Positions 8,427 to 29,090 of a stretch of 35,847 nt of DNA are shown here, piece by piece. Each line of letters begins with the position of its first letter. Within the stretch, counting starts at the first letter, position 1. Source of the stretch: a virus. The notes below the pieces were generated by a model. The model searched no databases. It was not told the origin of the DNA and worked only from the letters and a program-made list of their open reading frames with translations. The stretch is taken from positions 1-35,847 of the IMG/VR virus record IMGVR_UViG_3300011114_000674. The stretch is one strand, 5' to 3'. The position numbers and the translations under genes are program-made.

Positions 8427-9044
8427 ATGAAAGTCGAAAACGCCTCCATTTCTTCGCTTGTCTCCGATCCTGCAAACGCCAGAAAGCATTCAGAAAAAAA
8501 CCTAAAAGCTATAAAAGGCTCTCTCGCCAAGTTTGGGCAGCAAAAGCCTATCGTGGTGGGCAAGGGCAACGTGGTTATCGCGGGCAACGGAACGCTTGAA
8601 GCGGCCAAGGCGCTTGGCTGGGAAAAGATCAAAATCGTTAGAACCGACCTAACCGGCACCGAAGCCACGGCCTTCGCTATTGCCGATAACAGGGCGGGCG
8701 AGTTGGCTGGTTGGGACTTTGAAATTCTCGGCGCGGCATTGGCTTCGCTAAAGGCCGAGGACTTTGACATCGGCGAAATCGGGTTTGATTTGAACGATTT
8801 CAATTTGCTAACCCCTTCGCAAGAACCGGATTATTCGGTGATAGAGGAAGGCGAAGGCGATTCCAAACGAATTGACGACATGCGGGGGGAAGTCCGCAAG
8901 GCCATACAAATAGAATTCGATAATGAAAGTTATGAGAAGGCTTTTGAATTGGTGAAATTCTGGAGACAGAAGGGCGTTTCCGTAGGAATGATGCTCATAG
9001 AAAAATTAAAGTCTGAAAAGGAAGCGTTGGAAGGTGCCCAATGA
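8427..9044 (+). CDS. ParB/Srx-like N-terminal domain protein
   Basis: A 205-residue protein whose first 110 residues show the ParB nuclease-like fold: NARKH (17-21), SLAKFGQQKPIVV, VVIAGNGTLEAAKALG (about 49-64) and DNRAGE (87-92). The C-terminal half is acidic and helical and lacks a recognised DNA-binding or methyltransferase domain. Phage proteins of this kind are found next to terminases and DNA-modification genes, where they may bind DNA or act on nucleotides. It overlaps the methyltransferase gene by 4 bases (ATGA). Confidence 0.85.
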   Translation: MKVENASISSLVSDPANARKHSEKNLKAIKGSLAKFGQQKPIVVGKGNVVIAGNGTLEAAKALGWEKIKIVRTDLTGTEATAFAIADNRAGELAGWDFEILGAALASLKAEDFDIGEIGFDLNDFNLLTPSQEPDYSVIEEGEGDSKRIDDMRGEVRKAIQIEFDNESYEKAFELVKFWRQKGVSVGMMLIEKLKSEKEALEGAQ

Positions 9045-9727
9045 GGCTCGAGTCCGGGGAAATCAAGGGGATAAAATTTTACCATCGTACTGGCACTTCA
9101 GACCTTAAGACCTTTGAAGAAGTTATCGGGAAAGATGTTTATAGGAAACGCGGAAACACCATAGAGCCAGGCGAATTCTGGTATGACTGCGGAGGTAATG
9201 TCGGCGCGTTCACATTGCTGGCAATCTCTTGCGGGGCTGAAGTCGAAGTGTTCGAGCCAGACCCGTTCAACTGCGAAATGATCGAAAAGAATCTGAAGCT
9301 GAACAAGATGCGGGCCAAAGTGAATCAAGTCGCCTTAGTCCACAACGGTACCAAAGAAGCAGTCCTTTACGCCGGTAACAACGGGAATTTCTGGCGGAAT
9401 TCCTTGGTCAAGAACTGGAATGGAAAAGGTATAAAGGTCAAGTGTATAAACTTCGATGCCGCCGTGAAGCCCGGCACTTGCGTCAAGATGGACATTGAAG
9501 GAATGGAGATGCCAATAGTCGAAACAACGGCACACCTTTTTAAAAAGTTCATCTTTGAATGGAGCTTCGACATCGACCCAGACCTTGAAAGGTACTGGCG
9601 CATCACAGACAAGTTGTCCGAGAAATACACGGTCACTTGCACCAGCTACCGCGATAAGGGCGTGACAATTTGGCCTAAGAGTTGGTTCCCGGCTTGCGAG
9701 AACGTCTTTTGCCGGGAGAAGGCATGA
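9041..9727 (+). CDS. FkbM-family SAM-dependent methyltransferase
   Basis: A 228-residue class I methyltransferase. Motif I is FWYDCGGNVGAF (Asp49, Gly-rich loop to Gly55), motif II is VFEPDP (70-75), and KMDIEG (149-154) is the FkbM hallmark. FkbM enzymes usually O-methylate sugars or small molecules; the substrate here is unknown. The gene overlaps its neighbours by 4 bases on both sides, so it is translated together with the ParB-like protein and the oxygenase. That suggests a shared pathway acting on DNA, a glycan or a protein. Confidence 0.85.
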   Translation: MRLESGEIKGIKFYHRTGTSDLKTFEEVIGKDVYRKRGNTIEPGEFWYDCGGNVGAFTLLAISCGAEVEVFEPDPFNCEMIEKNLKLNKMRAKVNQVALVHNGTKEAVLYAGNNGNFWRNSLVKNWNGKGIKVKCINFDAAVKPGTCVKMDIEGMEMPIVETTAHLFKKFIFEWSFDIDPDLERYWRITDKLSEKYTVTCTSYRDKGVTIWPKSWFPACENVFCREKA

Positions 9728-10509
9728 AGCGCATCGACTTAGTTAAAAGGGAGCATAGCGTCCAGATCGGAGATGTCTGCGGGCACATTGCGCCCAACAT
9801 CTGTGAAGACTCTATATTCTATGAGGACGGGGAACCTATTGGGTTCTATTTGGCGGATATGGGGAAATTCAACCCCAAGCTGAACAAGTTGGCCGACGTG
9901 GCTAATGCAGAATTGCGGAGTGATCGAGTCCCCAAAACTGTGATGGATAGGAAGAGGCCGCTTGGTGACGGGAGTTATTTGGTAGTTTCCCAGTACAGCA
10001 CCATTATTGGCAGCGTTCCGCCGAAGCCGCATATGCGCCGCGCCTATCCAACCATGAGCAGCGTTCACAATGTAAAGTCTGCAGAGACATTCATCAAGGC
10101 CATGTTGCTGCTTTGCAAAGAGGGCGAAGACGTTATTCAAGAACTGGTGCCAACTGTCTTTGAGCGGCAGTGCCAGATCATTAAAGAAAAAATACCTGAA
10201 AAGTGGCGATTTGGCAGGATGTTTACCAGCTCTATTTCTAACTATAACATTTCAGCACCATTCCATCGCGATGCGGCCAACCTAATAGGTTGCGTCAATA
10301 TCATTATCGCTAAGAAATGGAGAGCAGAAGGCGGAAACACAACTGTTCCAGACTACGGCGCGACAGTTGACAGCCGCGATAATTCAATGCTGGTATACCC
10401 GGCTTGGAAAAATGTCCACGGCGTGACGCCAATAGAAGTTTTGATGGAAGGCGGTTACAGAAATAGTCTGGTGTTCTATCCTCTTAAGGCTTTTGAGAAT
10501 TGCCCATAG
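9724..10509 (+). CDS. 2-oxoglutarate/Fe(II) dioxygenase, JBP/TET-like
   Basis: A 261-residue protein starting at the ATG within ATGA at 9724. The C-terminal domain has FHRDAAN (His181, Asp183), EGGNTTVPDYGATVD (202-216), NVHGVTP (His232) and YRNSLVFYP (Arg246), giving the HxD...H...R set for iron and 2-oxoglutarate. The GG...P.YG..D and HG.TP blocks recall TET/JBP thymine/5-methylcytosine oxygenases, known in phages as base-hypermodification enzymes. The N-terminal 160 residues are unassigned. A protein or small-molecule substrate cannot be excluded. Confidence 0.78.
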   Translation: MKRIDLVKREHSVQIGDVCGHIAPNICEDSIFYEDGEPIGFYLADMGKFNPKLNKLADVANAELRSDRVPKTVMDRKRPLGDGSYLVVSQYSTIIGSVPPKPHMRRAYPTMSSVHNVKSAETFIKAMLLLCKEGEDVIQELVPTVFERQCQIIKEKIPEKWRFGRMFTSSISNYNISAPFHRDAANLIGCVNIIIAKKWRAEGGNTTVPDYGATVDSRDNSMLVYPAWKNVHGVTPIEVLMEGGYRNSLVFYPLKAFENCP

Positions 10510-10614: not shown

Positions 10615-11034
10615 ATGAATAAAAAGGGTCCGCCGGATCAATACAAGTTTAAAAAGGGTCAGTCGGGTAACCCAGGCGGTATGCCTAAAATACCAGATGA
10701 TATTAAAGAGGCTAGAAAGCTTAATCAAATTGAGTTAGAACGTATTATAAACAAGTACCTTCATATGCCTAAGAATGATCTACAGGTTATTCTTAAGTCT
10801 CCTAACATACCGATGATGGAATTGATGGTTGCTTCTATCGTCGCGAAAGCTGCAACTGGCGGCGATCACTTGAGATTAGACTTCATCCTAAATCGAATTA
10901 TCGGCAAGGTTAAAGACAAGATTGAAGTGGCAGCTGTGAAGCCATACGTCATCAATAACCTTGATGGCACTAAGACAGTCTTAGGCGTAACCGACGGCCA
11001 AGAGAAGGAGGGCCTAGATTGGAAGGACCCATAA
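10615..11034 (+). CDS. terS: Small terminase subunit-like protein (DUF5681 N-terminus)
   Basis: A 139-residue protein with the N-terminal motif KFKKGQSGNPGG (16-27), the DUF5681 signature found in many phage genes directly before the large terminase. The rest is helical (EARKLNQIELERIINKYL, then a second helical block), consistent with an oligomeric DNA-recognition subunit that selects DNA for packaging. The ATG follows GAGGGA. The gene is succeeded by TerL after a short region with start-codon problems. The name rests on motif and gene order. Confidence 0.75.
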   Translation: MNKKGPPDQYKFKKGQSGNPGGMPKIPDDIKEARKLNQIELERIINKYLHMPKNDLQVILKSPNIPMMELMVASIVAKAATGGDHLRLDFILNRIIGKVKDKIEVAAVKPYVINNLDGTKTVLGVTDGQEKEGLDWKDP

Positions 11035-11093
11035 AGCCAACTAAGCCTATGCCCCGTCCAGAGGATGATGCTTGCAAGGATGTTGAGCCATAA
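11019..11093 (+). CDS. 24-residue ORF overlapping the TerS end, possible TerL leader or N-terminus
   Basis: TTG at 11019 has AAGGAGG 7 bases upstream and opens a Pro-rich 24-residue frame (MEGPIKPTKPMPRPEDDACK..) that ends in TAA at 11091-11093, exactly where the TerL frame begins in another register. It could be a coupling leader peptide, or the true TerL N-terminus separated by a frameshift or sequence error. Confidence 0.4.
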   Translation: MEGPIKPTKPMPRPEDDACKDVEP

Positions 11094-12409
11094 CGGATAG
11101 CTTCACACCACACTCTGAAAAGCAGCAAAGGGCGCTATATTCAAAAGCGCCTATTGTCGTTTTAGCTACTGGCATTCAGTACGGTAAAACCGCTACTGGT
11201 GCCCACCGTATGAAAATAGCCGCCCACACTCATACCGACCCTTTAGACAACTTCCTTATCGTCGCCCCTACCTACAAGATTCTGCAACAGTCCACGTTGC
11301 CAGAATTTTTCCGCATTATGAGGGGTTATGGCGACTATTCGAAGTCTGAATCTGTTTTCAAGGTTCACGGCGGCGGCACTATCTACTGTCGGACCGGCAC
11401 GGATCCTGATTCGATTGTCGGTATAACCAATATACGCCACGTTTGGGCCGATGAGGCGGGTCTTCTGTCTACCTACTTCTGGGAAAACCTCCAGGCTAGA
11501 GCGGCGTTCAAGTCCGCTCCGATTACGCTAACCACTTCCCCATACACCCTGAATTGGATTTATAGGGAGATGATTCGCCCCAAGATGAAGGATGCCACCG
11601 CTCGCCCGGATGTGGAGCTAATTCAGGCCGCAAGCGAAGAAAACCCCTACATGAGTCGCCACGTAATTGAAACAGCTAGGGCCAACATGGACCCTCGCCG
11701 GTTTAATGCTCTATTCGGCGGCAAATGGGAAAGGATGAGCGGCCTTGTATACGATTGCTTCGATGAAGTTGAAAACACCTGCGAGCCGTTTGAGCTACCG
11801 AAAGGCACTAAATACGTCGCGGGAGTTGACTGGGGCTACACCCACCCATTCGTTATCCTAGTTAGAGCCATAACCCCAAGTGGGCAGCACTATCAGGTGG
11901 CTGAAGTCTACGAAGTGGGCCTAACAATCGACAAAAAGATAGACGTGGCCAAAAGACTTAGCCAAGTATTCGACATAGACACGTTCTACTGCGACCCCGC
12001 TAGGCCCGATGAGATAGCCGCCTTCTGTTCGGCAAGGCTAACAGCCGTAGCAGCTAATAATGACATCAGGATGGGGATAGACAGGCAGTACGAATTGATT
12101 AAGTCTAGAAAGTTTAAAATCTTTCGCGGGACATCAGCCAATACGCTCGACGAAATAGAGGGCTACCACTATCCAAATCCCGAGGATAGAGGGCCTGACA
12201 AGTCTGACAAAGAGACACTTCCGGTCGACAAGGCAAACCACGCTATGGACTGCCTTCGTTATATAACTATGGCTACCCACCGCCTACAGGACTTGCGCAA
12301 GCCGACAATTGCTGACACAAAGTCTATAGAGCAAGAGAATGACATCTACCGCCGAATTGAGATGCATAAAAGGCGTCCTAAAACATCACGCTTTGAAAAT
12401 TGGGGATAG
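11090..12409 (+). CDS. terL: Terminase large subunit (packaging ATPase and nuclease)
   Basis: The frame is open from 11087. SFTPHSEKQQRALYS leads into Walker A ATGIQYGKT, which lies before the first ATG (11210), so that ATG cannot be the start. Walker B is VWADEAG, and a TTSP coupling motif follows. The RNase H-like nuclease has GVDWGYTHP, YCDPARPDE and NHAMDCLRY, carrying the expected acidic residues. No ATG, GTG or TTG exists in frame upstream. An ATA at 11090 with AAGGA 9 bases before it is the best candidate, giving 439 residues; frameshifting from the 24-residue ORF is the alternative. TerL pumps genome DNA into the procapsid and cuts it. Confidence 0.9.
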   Translation: MTDSFTPHSEKQQRALYSKAPIVVLATGIQYGKTATGAHRMKIAAHTHTDPLDNFLIVAPTYKILQQSTLPEFFRIMRGYGDYSKSESVFKVHGGGTIYCRTGTDPDSIVGITNIRHVWADEAGLLSTYFWENLQARAAFKSAPITLTTSPYTLNWIYREMIRPKMKDATARPDVELIQAASEENPYMSRHVIETARANMDPRRFNALFGGKWERMSGLVYDCFDEVENTCEPFELPKGTKYVAGVDWGYTHPFVILVRAITPSGQHYQVAEVYEVGLTIDKKIDVAKRLSQVFDIDTFYCDPARPDEIAAFCSARLTAVAANNDIRMGIDRQYELIKSRKFKIFRGTSANTLDEIEGYHYPNPEDRGPDKSDKETLPVDKANHAMDCLRYITMATHRLQDLRKPTIADTKSIEQENDIYRRIEMHKRRPKTSRFENWG

Positions 12410-17189: not shown

Positions 17190-18206
17190 GTGGTAGTTAG
17201 GAAGCGCGAGATAATTTGCGAATATCAGCCGTATATTGATAACCCTCCTTATACAGGCCAAGACCTGTATAAGCAGTCATGTTCTAACGATGAAGTAACG
17301 GTTAATTCATGGCGAGACACTTGGTTGAAACAGATCAAGGAAAACCATGAATCTTTCGGACCCTTCAAAGAAAAGGGCATTGGTAGGCTGTGGGCCTCAG
17401 AATCCCTTAAGCCAGTTATCATAGTCGGCAGTGGCCCTAGTTTGAAACTTAATGCTCACGAGCTTAAAGACAATCCGGGGATAGCAGTTATCTCGTGCCT
17501 TCATAACTTCCACTTCCTAGAGGACTTAGGCGTCAAGGTGGACTACTACGTCACCCTTGACGCTGGTCCTATAACTATTTCAGAAGTTAGCGAAGGTGGG
17601 TCTAGGACAGCCGAAGAATACTGGGAGTTGACAAAAGACAGAAAGCTTCTTGCATTCATCGGAACTCACCCAGACTTGCTTAAGAAGTGGCGCGGTGAGG
17701 TATTGTTCTTCAATTGCCCGCTACCAGACGCTTCATTGATGAATGAGATCGAGAAAATAGAGAAGTTTAGAACCTCTGTTTCAACCGGTGGGAATGTCCT
17801 AGGCGCTTGCGCTTATATAGCTAAGGCCATCTTAGGGTGTAATCCACTGGTATTTGTTGGCGCTGATTTCTCGTTTTCGTACCTTGATAAGTTTCATGCT
17901 TGGGACAGTAGCTACGATGCTAGCTTAGGTAATTACATCCGAATGACCGACGTATTCGGAAACAGCGTCAAAAGTTGGCAATCTTATGCGAATTTTAAGG
18001 CTTGGTTTGACTCCAGGGCCATGACGGTTCCGGGGCAGTGGGTAAATTGCACCGAGGGCGGCACTTTTGGTGCCTATCCCGGCGGGAATATCCGGCATGT
18101 CAAGCAACAGGCATTGCGAGCCTTTTTAGATGAGTATAAACTTCATTATCACATCAAAGACCAATGCGAGAATCCAGAGACAGACGACTTAAAAATCCTA
18201 TTCTAA
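17190..18206 (+). CDS. DUF115 / MptE-like protein
   Basis: A 338-residue protein starting at GTG 17190, near a GGGGGCTAGGGAG site. It contains KPVIIVGSGPSL (74-85), a VDYYVTLDAGP block (118-127), TSVSTGGNV and LVFVGADFSFS. This is the DUF115 core shared by archaeal 6-hydroxymethylpterin diphosphokinase MptE and Maf-type flagellin glycosyltransferases. It sits unexpectedly inside the virion module, between head genes. It may transfer or activate a sugar-like or pterin-like group; the phage role is unknown. Composition does not look different from its neighbours. Confidence 0.8.
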   Translation: MVVRKREIICEYQPYIDNPPYTGQDLYKQSCSNDEVTVNSWRDTWLKQIKENHESFGPFKEKGIGRLWASESLKPVIIVGSGPSLKLNAHELKDNPGIAVISCLHNFHFLEDLGVKVDYYVTLDAGPITISEVSEGGSRTAEEYWELTKDRKLLAFIGTHPDLLKKWRGEVLFFNCPLPDASLMNEIEKIEKFRTSVSTGGNVLGACAYIAKAILGCNPLVFVGADFSFSYLDKFHAWDSSYDASLGNYIRMTDVFGNSVKSWQSYANFKAWFDSRAMTVPGQWVNCTEGGTFGAYPGGNIRHVKQQALRAFLDEYKLHYHIKDQCENPETDDLKILF

Positions 18207-27931: not shown

Positions 27932-28147
27932 ATGAATCTAGACGCAATATACTTCGTACTATCTGCTCTTTTTTTGACAAATCTAATCCAAGCTTATTTT
28001 CTCCTATCAAAGTCCAATAAACAGAAGGCAAAATTAGATATAAGCGCATCTGATTTGCTTCATGAATTGACAGTAAATGGCAGTGCAATCTTGAAGGTCG
28101 ATGTTATGGACAGGGATAACCTTCTCCTGAGACTGCCGCGTGGTTAG
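27932..28147 (+). CDS. Small single-pass membrane protein
   Basis: A 71-residue protein with one hydrophobic segment (about 5-26) and a charged C-terminal domain. AAGGA precedes the ATG. One-segment proteins of this size near lysis genes can be holin-like or anti-holin-like, but no family is recognised. Its stop overlaps the aminotransferase-like gene by 8 bases. Confidence 0.62.
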   Translation: MNLDAIYFVLSALFLTNLIQAYFLLSKSNKQKAKLDISASDLLHELTVNGSAILKVDVMDRDNLLLRLPRG

Positions 28148-29090
28148 TTCATCTAGGTCATACAAGCTTATACAAAGAGCAGATGAGAGCCTAGGACACT
28201 GCAAAGAAGGGCCTAGAGTGCTTATTTCCAGCGGAAACGGTGCCAATGTATATGCTGCCGCTGACAACTACAAATACCTAGACTTCACTGGCTCTAGTGG
28301 CGTTTTAGGCCACTCTAACGACAGCCTAAATCAAGATGTTTCAAGGCAATTGCAAAGAGGGATATCCCTACCTTTACACAGGTATTCGGAGCTAGAGGCA
28401 GCCGAAAAGACAAAGGAAGCAATTCCATTCATCGACCACGTCAAGTTTTTTAGGAAGGAATTTGACGCTGTATCGTTCTGCTTTGAGTTATCTAATTATT
28501 TTTCATCTGATCCAGTTTTTGTTTCTCCAGACGACACAATTCAAAGCGACATACAATCTTTAAGGGATAAATGCACTTCACATAACCGTTTGCTGGTTAT
28601 GAACGAATCACATTCATCCTTCAGGTTCCCTAAATTCTCAGCATCTAATTACTACGGTATAGTTCCAGACCTAATAATCATTGGTGCGGCAAATGCTTGC
28701 GGGTTTCCATTTTTCATAGTGGGCGGCAAGTCTATACTCATGGCCCAAAACCCAGAAATTGAAGAAGACTACCCAGTTGACTGCATTTCATTAGGGGCAT
28801 ATACGGCGGCCGTAACACTGCTACAAAAGCGCTATTCTATTGAGCAATTGTGGGAGAATGCAGCTACCTTCCAACGGGAATTTAACAAGTTATCCACATC
28901 TATTCAGCTGGCGGGTAACTACTCGACAAGGCTCAGGGTGTCTGGAGAGCCAAAGAACGTGGGACGTTTTATGAAAGAGTGCTTGTCAGCCGGGTTTATC
29001 TTTGATGACTATGTAAACTTCACATTTCCGCTTATTTCTGAGTGTAAAAGTGCTATTCCTATTCTTAGATCAATACTTTTAAAAGTATAA
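28140..29090 (+). CDS. Degenerate class III aminotransferase homologue (probable pseudoenzyme)
   Basis: A 316-residue protein (GTG at 28140) that follows the glutamate-1-semialdehyde aminotransferase fold: YKYLDFTGSSGVLGH, LLVMNESHSSFRF, YGIVPDLIIIGAANACGFP and VGGKSILM. In the family, Asp of DEV..GFR binds the PLP nitrogen and Lys of the GK..GGG.P block holds PLP; here they read Asn155 and Ala183. The SG.EA block is also lost, and the chain is about 100 residues shorter than usual. PLP catalysis is therefore unlikely. It may have been repurposed for binding or structure. No frameshift is seen. Confidence 0.7.
   Translation: MVSSSRSYKLIQRADESLGHCKEGPRVLISSGNGANVYAAADNYKYLDFTGSSGVLGHSNDSLNQDVSRQLQRGISLPLHRYSELEAAEKTKEAIPFIDHVKFFRKEFDAVSFCFELSNYFSSDPVFVSPDDTIQSDIQSLRDKCTSHNRLLVMNESHSSFRFPKFSASNYYGIVPDLIIIGAANACGFPFFIVGGKSILMAQNPEIEEDYPVDCISLGAYTAAVTLLQKRYSIEQLWENAATFQREFNKLSTSIQLAGNYSTRLRVSGEPKNVGRFMKECLSAGFIFDDYVNFTFPLISECKSAIPILRSILLKV

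Follow-up and report, generated by a model that had tools for sequence, protein, structure and literature searches.

An uncultured phage, represented by a 35,847-base virus record (hereafter the window, i.e. the whole stretch of DNA analysed), carries at 8427-10509 a cassette of three genes encoding a ParB-domain protein, a FkbM-type methyltransferase and a TET/JBP dioxygenase. We propose, with a probability of roughly 0.6, that this cassette is a phage DNA hypermodification system in which thymine is converted to 5-hydroxymethyluracil by TET and then to 5-methoxymethyluracil by FkbM, with ParB guiding or regulating TET. The genes of the cassette and the two neighbours downstream are:

8427..9044, + strand: ParB N-terminal-domain protein, first gene of the cassette, 205 aa (Pfam ParB_N; PHROG 620, ParB-like)
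9041..9727, + strand: FkbM-type SAM-dependent methyltransferase, enzyme of the exchangeable slot, 228 aa (Pfam Methyltransf_21, motifs, AlphaFold, TET neighbour)
9724..10509, + strand: TET/JBP 2-oxoglutarate/Fe(II) dioxygenase, predicted thymine (DNA) hydroxylase, 261 aa (Pfam Tet_JBP, motifs, AlphaFold)
10615..11034, + strand: DUF5681 protein in the small-terminase position, neighbour outside the cassette proper (Pfam PF18932, 5.4e-9)
11210..12409, + strand: terminase large subunit, neighbour (Pfam Terminase_3, 5.8e-6; PHROG 2, 3.9e-36)

The ParB/FkbM and FkbM/TET junctions are both 4-nt ATGA overlaps, and the cassette, with ParB and TET in a contiguous arrangement, lies immediately upstream of the terminase genes. 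The TET length of 261 aa is counted from the ATG at 9724; the mechanical list of open reading frames begins TET at a TTG at 9682. An initial annotation of this DNA had described three genes joined by ATGA overlaps, called them ParB-like, FkbM and TET/JBP, and placed them beside the terminase. The coordinates and content of the genes proved correct, the family calls agree with the Pfam and PHROG matches, and the DUF5681 protein followed by the large terminase is found downstream. Upstream of its first ATG (11210), the large-terminase frame stays open and, within window 11090-11210, encodes the Walker A motif (GIQYGKT); no ATG, GTG or TTG start occurs there, which may point to a non-standard start, a frameshift or a sequence error.

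The Pfam family Tet_JBP (PF12851) matched the window TET at 5.8e-9 with 35.8 bits, compared to a curated cut-off of 34.9. Among 42 homologues, the metal and 2-oxoglutarate set H181, D183, H232 and R246 (HxD...H...R) was invariant, as were G203, G204, P209 and Y211 in the GG..P.YG block and H232, T235 and P236 in the HG.TP block, both blocks having been named in the initial annotation. The AlphaFold model of TET (mean pLDDT 95.7) has the TET double-stranded beta-helix fold and, along its entire length, matched TET2 (Z 18.8, rmsd 3.7, 244 residues) as well as NgTet1 (Z 18.7, rmsd 2.8, 210 residues). Moreover, its 16 best-matching PDB chains were all from the TET family, and the oxygenase is accordingly not of an unrelated fold. 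Searching the PDB with the single sequences of TET and of FkbM returned no significant relative. A TET profile search reached TET2 only weakly and, therefore, it is the fold comparison that bears the assignment to the TET family. All through the family, TET has a basic calculated pI (median 9.2, against 8.3 for FkbM), which is compatible with action on DNA but only weakly indicative of it. From family, fold and context, the predicted first step, in which TET would hydroxylate the methyl group of thymine in the phage's own DNA to yield 5-hydroxymethyluracil, is strongly supported. The PHROG containing the window TET (PHROG 6059) is mislabelled 'queuine tRNA-ribosyltransferase', and phage TET/JBP proteins are widely annotated with this name, as 'DpdA-like' or as 'SNF2 DNA repair protein'.

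The window FkbM matched Methyltransf_21/FkbM (PF05050) at 6.8e-10 (39.8 bits; cut-off 22.7) and, among PHROGs, a methyltransferase family, while TET matched a TET-containing family. The SAM motif (D49, G51, N53, G55), E72/P73/D74 and the DIEG motif (D151/I152/E153/G154) were invariant in 32 homologues. The AlphaFold model (pLDDT 92.6) has a class I methyltransferase fold; the solved structures closest to it are those of RNA methyltransferases with differing chemistries (Trm5, RlmO; Z about 14), so the acceptor atom is not readable from the fold. Inspection of the FkbM sequence revealed neither the (D/N/S)PP(Y/F) motif of N-methyltransferases nor the PC motif of C5-methyltransferases and, with the catalytic motifs of both absent, a DNA N- or C5-methyltransferase is very unlikely. 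We infer that FkbM, as a predicted 5-hydroxymethyl-pyrimidine O-methyltransferase, carries out the second step, in which the SAM methyl group would be moved onto the new hydroxyl to yield 5-methoxymethyluracil. With this small, non-ionisable cap in place, the base would be closed to additional oxidation or conjugation, and the DNA would escape both restriction enzymes and the defences directed at hydroxymethyl bases.

Related loci were fetched with TET and with FkbM separately, and their neighbourhoods were then classified. In the resulting census of 140 loci, the order was PARB-FKBM-TET in 76, PARB-TAGT-TET in 29 and PARB-(GAT)-ADDT-KIN-TET in seven, while ParB directly adjoined TET in eight (L001, L002, L018, L020, L025, L026, L030, L035); these proportions are not frequencies, since resemblance to the TET or FkbM of the window decided which loci were retained. 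The slot glycosyltransferase is TAGT (TET-associated glycosyltransferase, PF20691), with cluster members matching the profile at 1.5e-11 to 0.005. The amino acid:DNA transferase is ADDT (PF18724, 9.5e-12), which occurs with a P-loop deoxynucleoside-kinase-like protein and at times also with a glutamine amidotransferase. Within the window's lineage, the census contained no cassette with both TAGT and FkbM.

The TET tree requires at least 22 changes of slot state, and its starred branches force at least five changes for FkbM and five for TAGT. Locus L043 and locus L058 share 93-97% nucleotide identity through the end of ParB and 89% identity from the first base of TET into the following genes; between ParB and TET, by contrast, L043 has GATase-ADDT-kinase and L058 has FkbM, exchanged exactly at the gene borders. 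The exchange of FkbM versus an empty slot between L030 and L126 is likewise clean. That slot enzymes are swapped at gene borders between conserved partners suggests a common intermediate. The middle gene would then represent a tailoring slot, and in related phages the same hydroxymethyl base would be decorated in other ways. The oxidise-then-methylate path that had been imagined in the initial annotation gains independent support in this way, because in sister cassettes the position of FkbM is held, after clean exchange, by known or predicted hydroxymethyl-pyrimidine modifiers, i.e. TAGT or ADDT with the kinase; its product is a prediction.

Other cassettes contain additional enzymes. L078 (1578-2878) has the order ParB-TAGT-sulfotransferase-TET, which predicts a sulfated sugar on the hydroxymethyl base. 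Proteins that by eye resemble sugar-nucleotidyltransferases or cytidylyltransferases lie within the TET cassettes of L034 (4127-5923), L243 (1587-2366) and L251 (5657-7100), and suggest phage-made sugar or other activated donors.

In the loci retrieved with FkbM, TET adjoined the window-type FkbM in 126 of 126 (some contigs were fetched twice). Across all fetched loci there were 99 distinct FkbM-TET junctions, and in 76 of these 99 ParB and FkbM overlapped by exactly 4 nt. The survey of the gene triple in other phages proposed in the initial annotation, thus, yielded the same gene set at about 100 distinct viral junctions, by which a chance overlap or a one-off cassette in the window is ruled out. 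FkbM could nevertheless act independently of TET, whether on ordinary DNA bases or on glycans or the capsid, and be merely co-located, given that FkbM enzymes are diverse, that the fold is near that of RNA base methyltransferases and that some phages have FkbM genes away from any TET cassette (those of Streptomyces phage Muntaha, Rhodococcus phage Trina and two Manatee Spring phages have no annotated TET in their neighbourhoods). However, the constant presence of TET, the frequent 4-nt overlaps, the replacement of FkbM, precisely at gene borders, by enzymes that tailor the TET product and the lack of N- and C5-methyltransferase motifs make such independence very unlikely.

A second alternative is that FkbM methylates another group derived from the TET reaction: either the carboxylate of 5-carboxyuracil, once oxidation is complete, with a methyl ester as the product, or a hydroxyl on a sugar or amino acid that host enzymes add. 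TET enzymes are capable of iterative oxidation. Moreover, in L127 (8001-11509) one cassette contains FkbM, ADDT, a Rossmann (FAD/NAD-type) oxidase-like protein, a kinase and TET, making a multi-step thymidine hypermodification that includes methylation possible; the same FkbM stands alongside a kinase in one further locus, and L242 contains both TAGT and a FkbM unlike that of the window. The L242 FkbM groups with an unrelated phage FkbM (100/99, but with long branches). On account of these three loci, the target of FkbM in some phages may be a group added later, such as an amino acid or a sugar. In nearly all loci, however, FkbM is the sole tailoring enzyme of the cassette, so that no attached group is made there and a host-made one would be needed. 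Thus, we consider methylation of another group rather unlikely for the cassette in general, and favour direct O-methylation of the hydroxymethyl base.

We searched for genes that would distinguish between thymine and cytosine as the base oxidised. A C5-cytosine methyltransferase (PF00145) was found neither in the window record (which may itself be a fragment) nor in the cultured phages MED4-184 and HTVC112P; among 42 related records, six have one elsewhere in the record and in 36 none was found. A thymidylate-synthase-like hydroxymethylase (PF00303) was present in none of the 42 records. With both enzymes absent from the window and its cultured relatives, oxidation by TET of thymine in polymerised DNA would be the economical source of a hydroxymethyl group, and from these gene absences the substrate of TET is most likely thymine rather than 5-methylcytosine. 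Were 5-methylcytosine made by the host or the phage the substrate, TET would generate 5-hydroxymethylcytosine and FkbM 5-methoxymethylcytosine. The characterised TET enzymes with solved structures, which are the nearest folds, act on 5-methylcytosine, and the six records with a C5-methyltransferase also fit with this route, so that 5-methylcytosine may be the substrate in some of the related phages. By contrast, the 36 records without one, and its absence from the window, MED4-184 and HTVC112P, speak against cytosine. Similarly, sister cassettes use ADDT and the kinase, whose biochemistry is that of thymidine hypermodification. Altogether, we regard the cytosine version as unlikely and retain the route from thymine to 5-methoxymethyluracil.

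The window ParB matched ParB_N at 9.8e-6 with 26.0 bits, just below the cut-off of 26.3, and PHROG 620 (ParB-like) at 5.3e-39. ParB is the first gene in nearly all cassettes regardless of the content of the slot. Because it persists in cassettes that lack FkbM or have another enzyme in its place, it belongs with TET or with the cassette; it had been suggested in the initial annotation as a DNA-binding partner, and a partnership with TET or the whole cassette fits the data while one specific to FkbM does not. Given this constancy, the ParB-domain protein would most likely guide or regulate TET on DNA. The nucleotide motif of the window ParB is GNGT while most relatives have GNMR or GHGR (GxxR-type) and, therefore, its nucleotide chemistry may differ.

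A two-step logic in which an oxygenase acts first and a cap follows is known from the base J pathway of kinetoplastids, in which the TET/JBP oxygenases JBP1/2 generate 5-hydroxymethyluracil and a second enzyme, the J glucosyltransferase, caps the hydroxyl. The proposed FkbM route shares this logic; the base J pathway differs in that it is eukaryotic and the cap is glucose rather than methyl. The TAGT phage cassettes have the same ParB-X-TET order, the same slot and the same TET subfamily as the window; however, in place of a predicted O-methyltransferase their slot is occupied by a glycosyltransferase, for which the predicted reaction is glycosylation of the hydroxymethyl base. In actinophages, cassettes with ParB and TET upstream of the terminase have been described as thymidine hypermodification systems in Tonitrus (PMC11955845) and CaiB (PMC9302106), with the composition ParB, TET-JBP, aGPT-Pplase and 5hmU DNA kinase (PMC11955845, PMC9302106). 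Like the window, these have ParB first (in the actinophage annotation examined here, ParB precedes TET), a TET/JBP protein, 4-bp overlaps and a location upstream of the terminase. In contrast to the window, they use a pyrophosphorylase and a kinase for tailoring and have no FkbM, and their TET is only about 26-30% identical to that of the window. The statement in the initial annotation that no system of exactly this form was known, thus, holds for the FkbM partner, which alone would be novel, and not for ParB with TET, which had already been described (PMC11955845, PMC9302106). Literature searches on FkbM, phages and modification gave mentions of giant viruses and prophages only. In the part of the literature covered, we found no report of a ParB-FkbM-TET cassette or of a 5-methoxymethyl pyrimidine in phage DNA; a prior mention is possible.

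Many aquatic phages, including cultured Prochlorococcus and Pelagibacter phages, have the same kind of cassette. In the Prochlorococcus phages MED4-184, P-HS2 and MED4-117, which unlike the window phage are cultured, the order ParB-FkbM-TET-small ORF-TerL is that of the window, with 49% identity for TET and 46% for FkbM. We found no account of these cassettes in the literature searched; their genes are annotated as 'DNA methylase' (the ParB of MED4-184 and MED4-117), hypothetical and 'queuine tRNA-ribosyltransferase'. In Pelagibacter phage HTVC112P, ParB, TET and FkbM similarly form a single overlapping run; however, the order is ParB-TET-FkbM and FkbM is only 28% identical to that of the window. 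More than 20 related contigs share this order and the distant FkbM, and relatives of the HTVC112P cassette have TAGT or ADDT where FkbM stands. The FkbM tree joins the window and Pelagibacter lineages with support of 77/51, and FkbM may have been recruited either once or separately in each. We lean slightly towards the broader proposal that aquatic phages widely make 5-methoxymethyl-2'-deoxyuridine by means of TET and FkbM, as one of several products exchanged by swaps of a single gene or gene pair while ParB and TET on either side stay fixed. In the literature covered, we found this base nowhere reported as naturally occurring.

If the proposed pathway is correct, a new natural DNA base is predicted in Prochlorococcus and Pelagibacter phages, and O-methylation joins the known ways in which phages cap hydroxymethyl bases. 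Because cultured phages of both groups carry this kind of cassette, the predicted base is directly testable, and genes mis-annotated as 'queuine tRNA-ribosyltransferase', 'SNF2 DNA repair protein' and 'DNA methylase' would become a testable pathway. Moreover, the slot provides a natural swap set (FkbM, TAGT, ADDT with kinase, or none) within a genome region that is alike in other respects, which is useful for asking what each decoration gains against restriction and against defences that target hydroxymethyl bases.

Outside the cassette, the capsid and portal proteins of the window phage are only about 30% or less identical to those of cultured phages. A MptE-like protein (PF01973, 3.5e-22) is encoded at 17190-18206 among the structural genes. 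Finally, a protein encoded at 28140-29090, where the late genes draw to a close, matches the class III aminotransferase profile in its central part only (1.2e-8).
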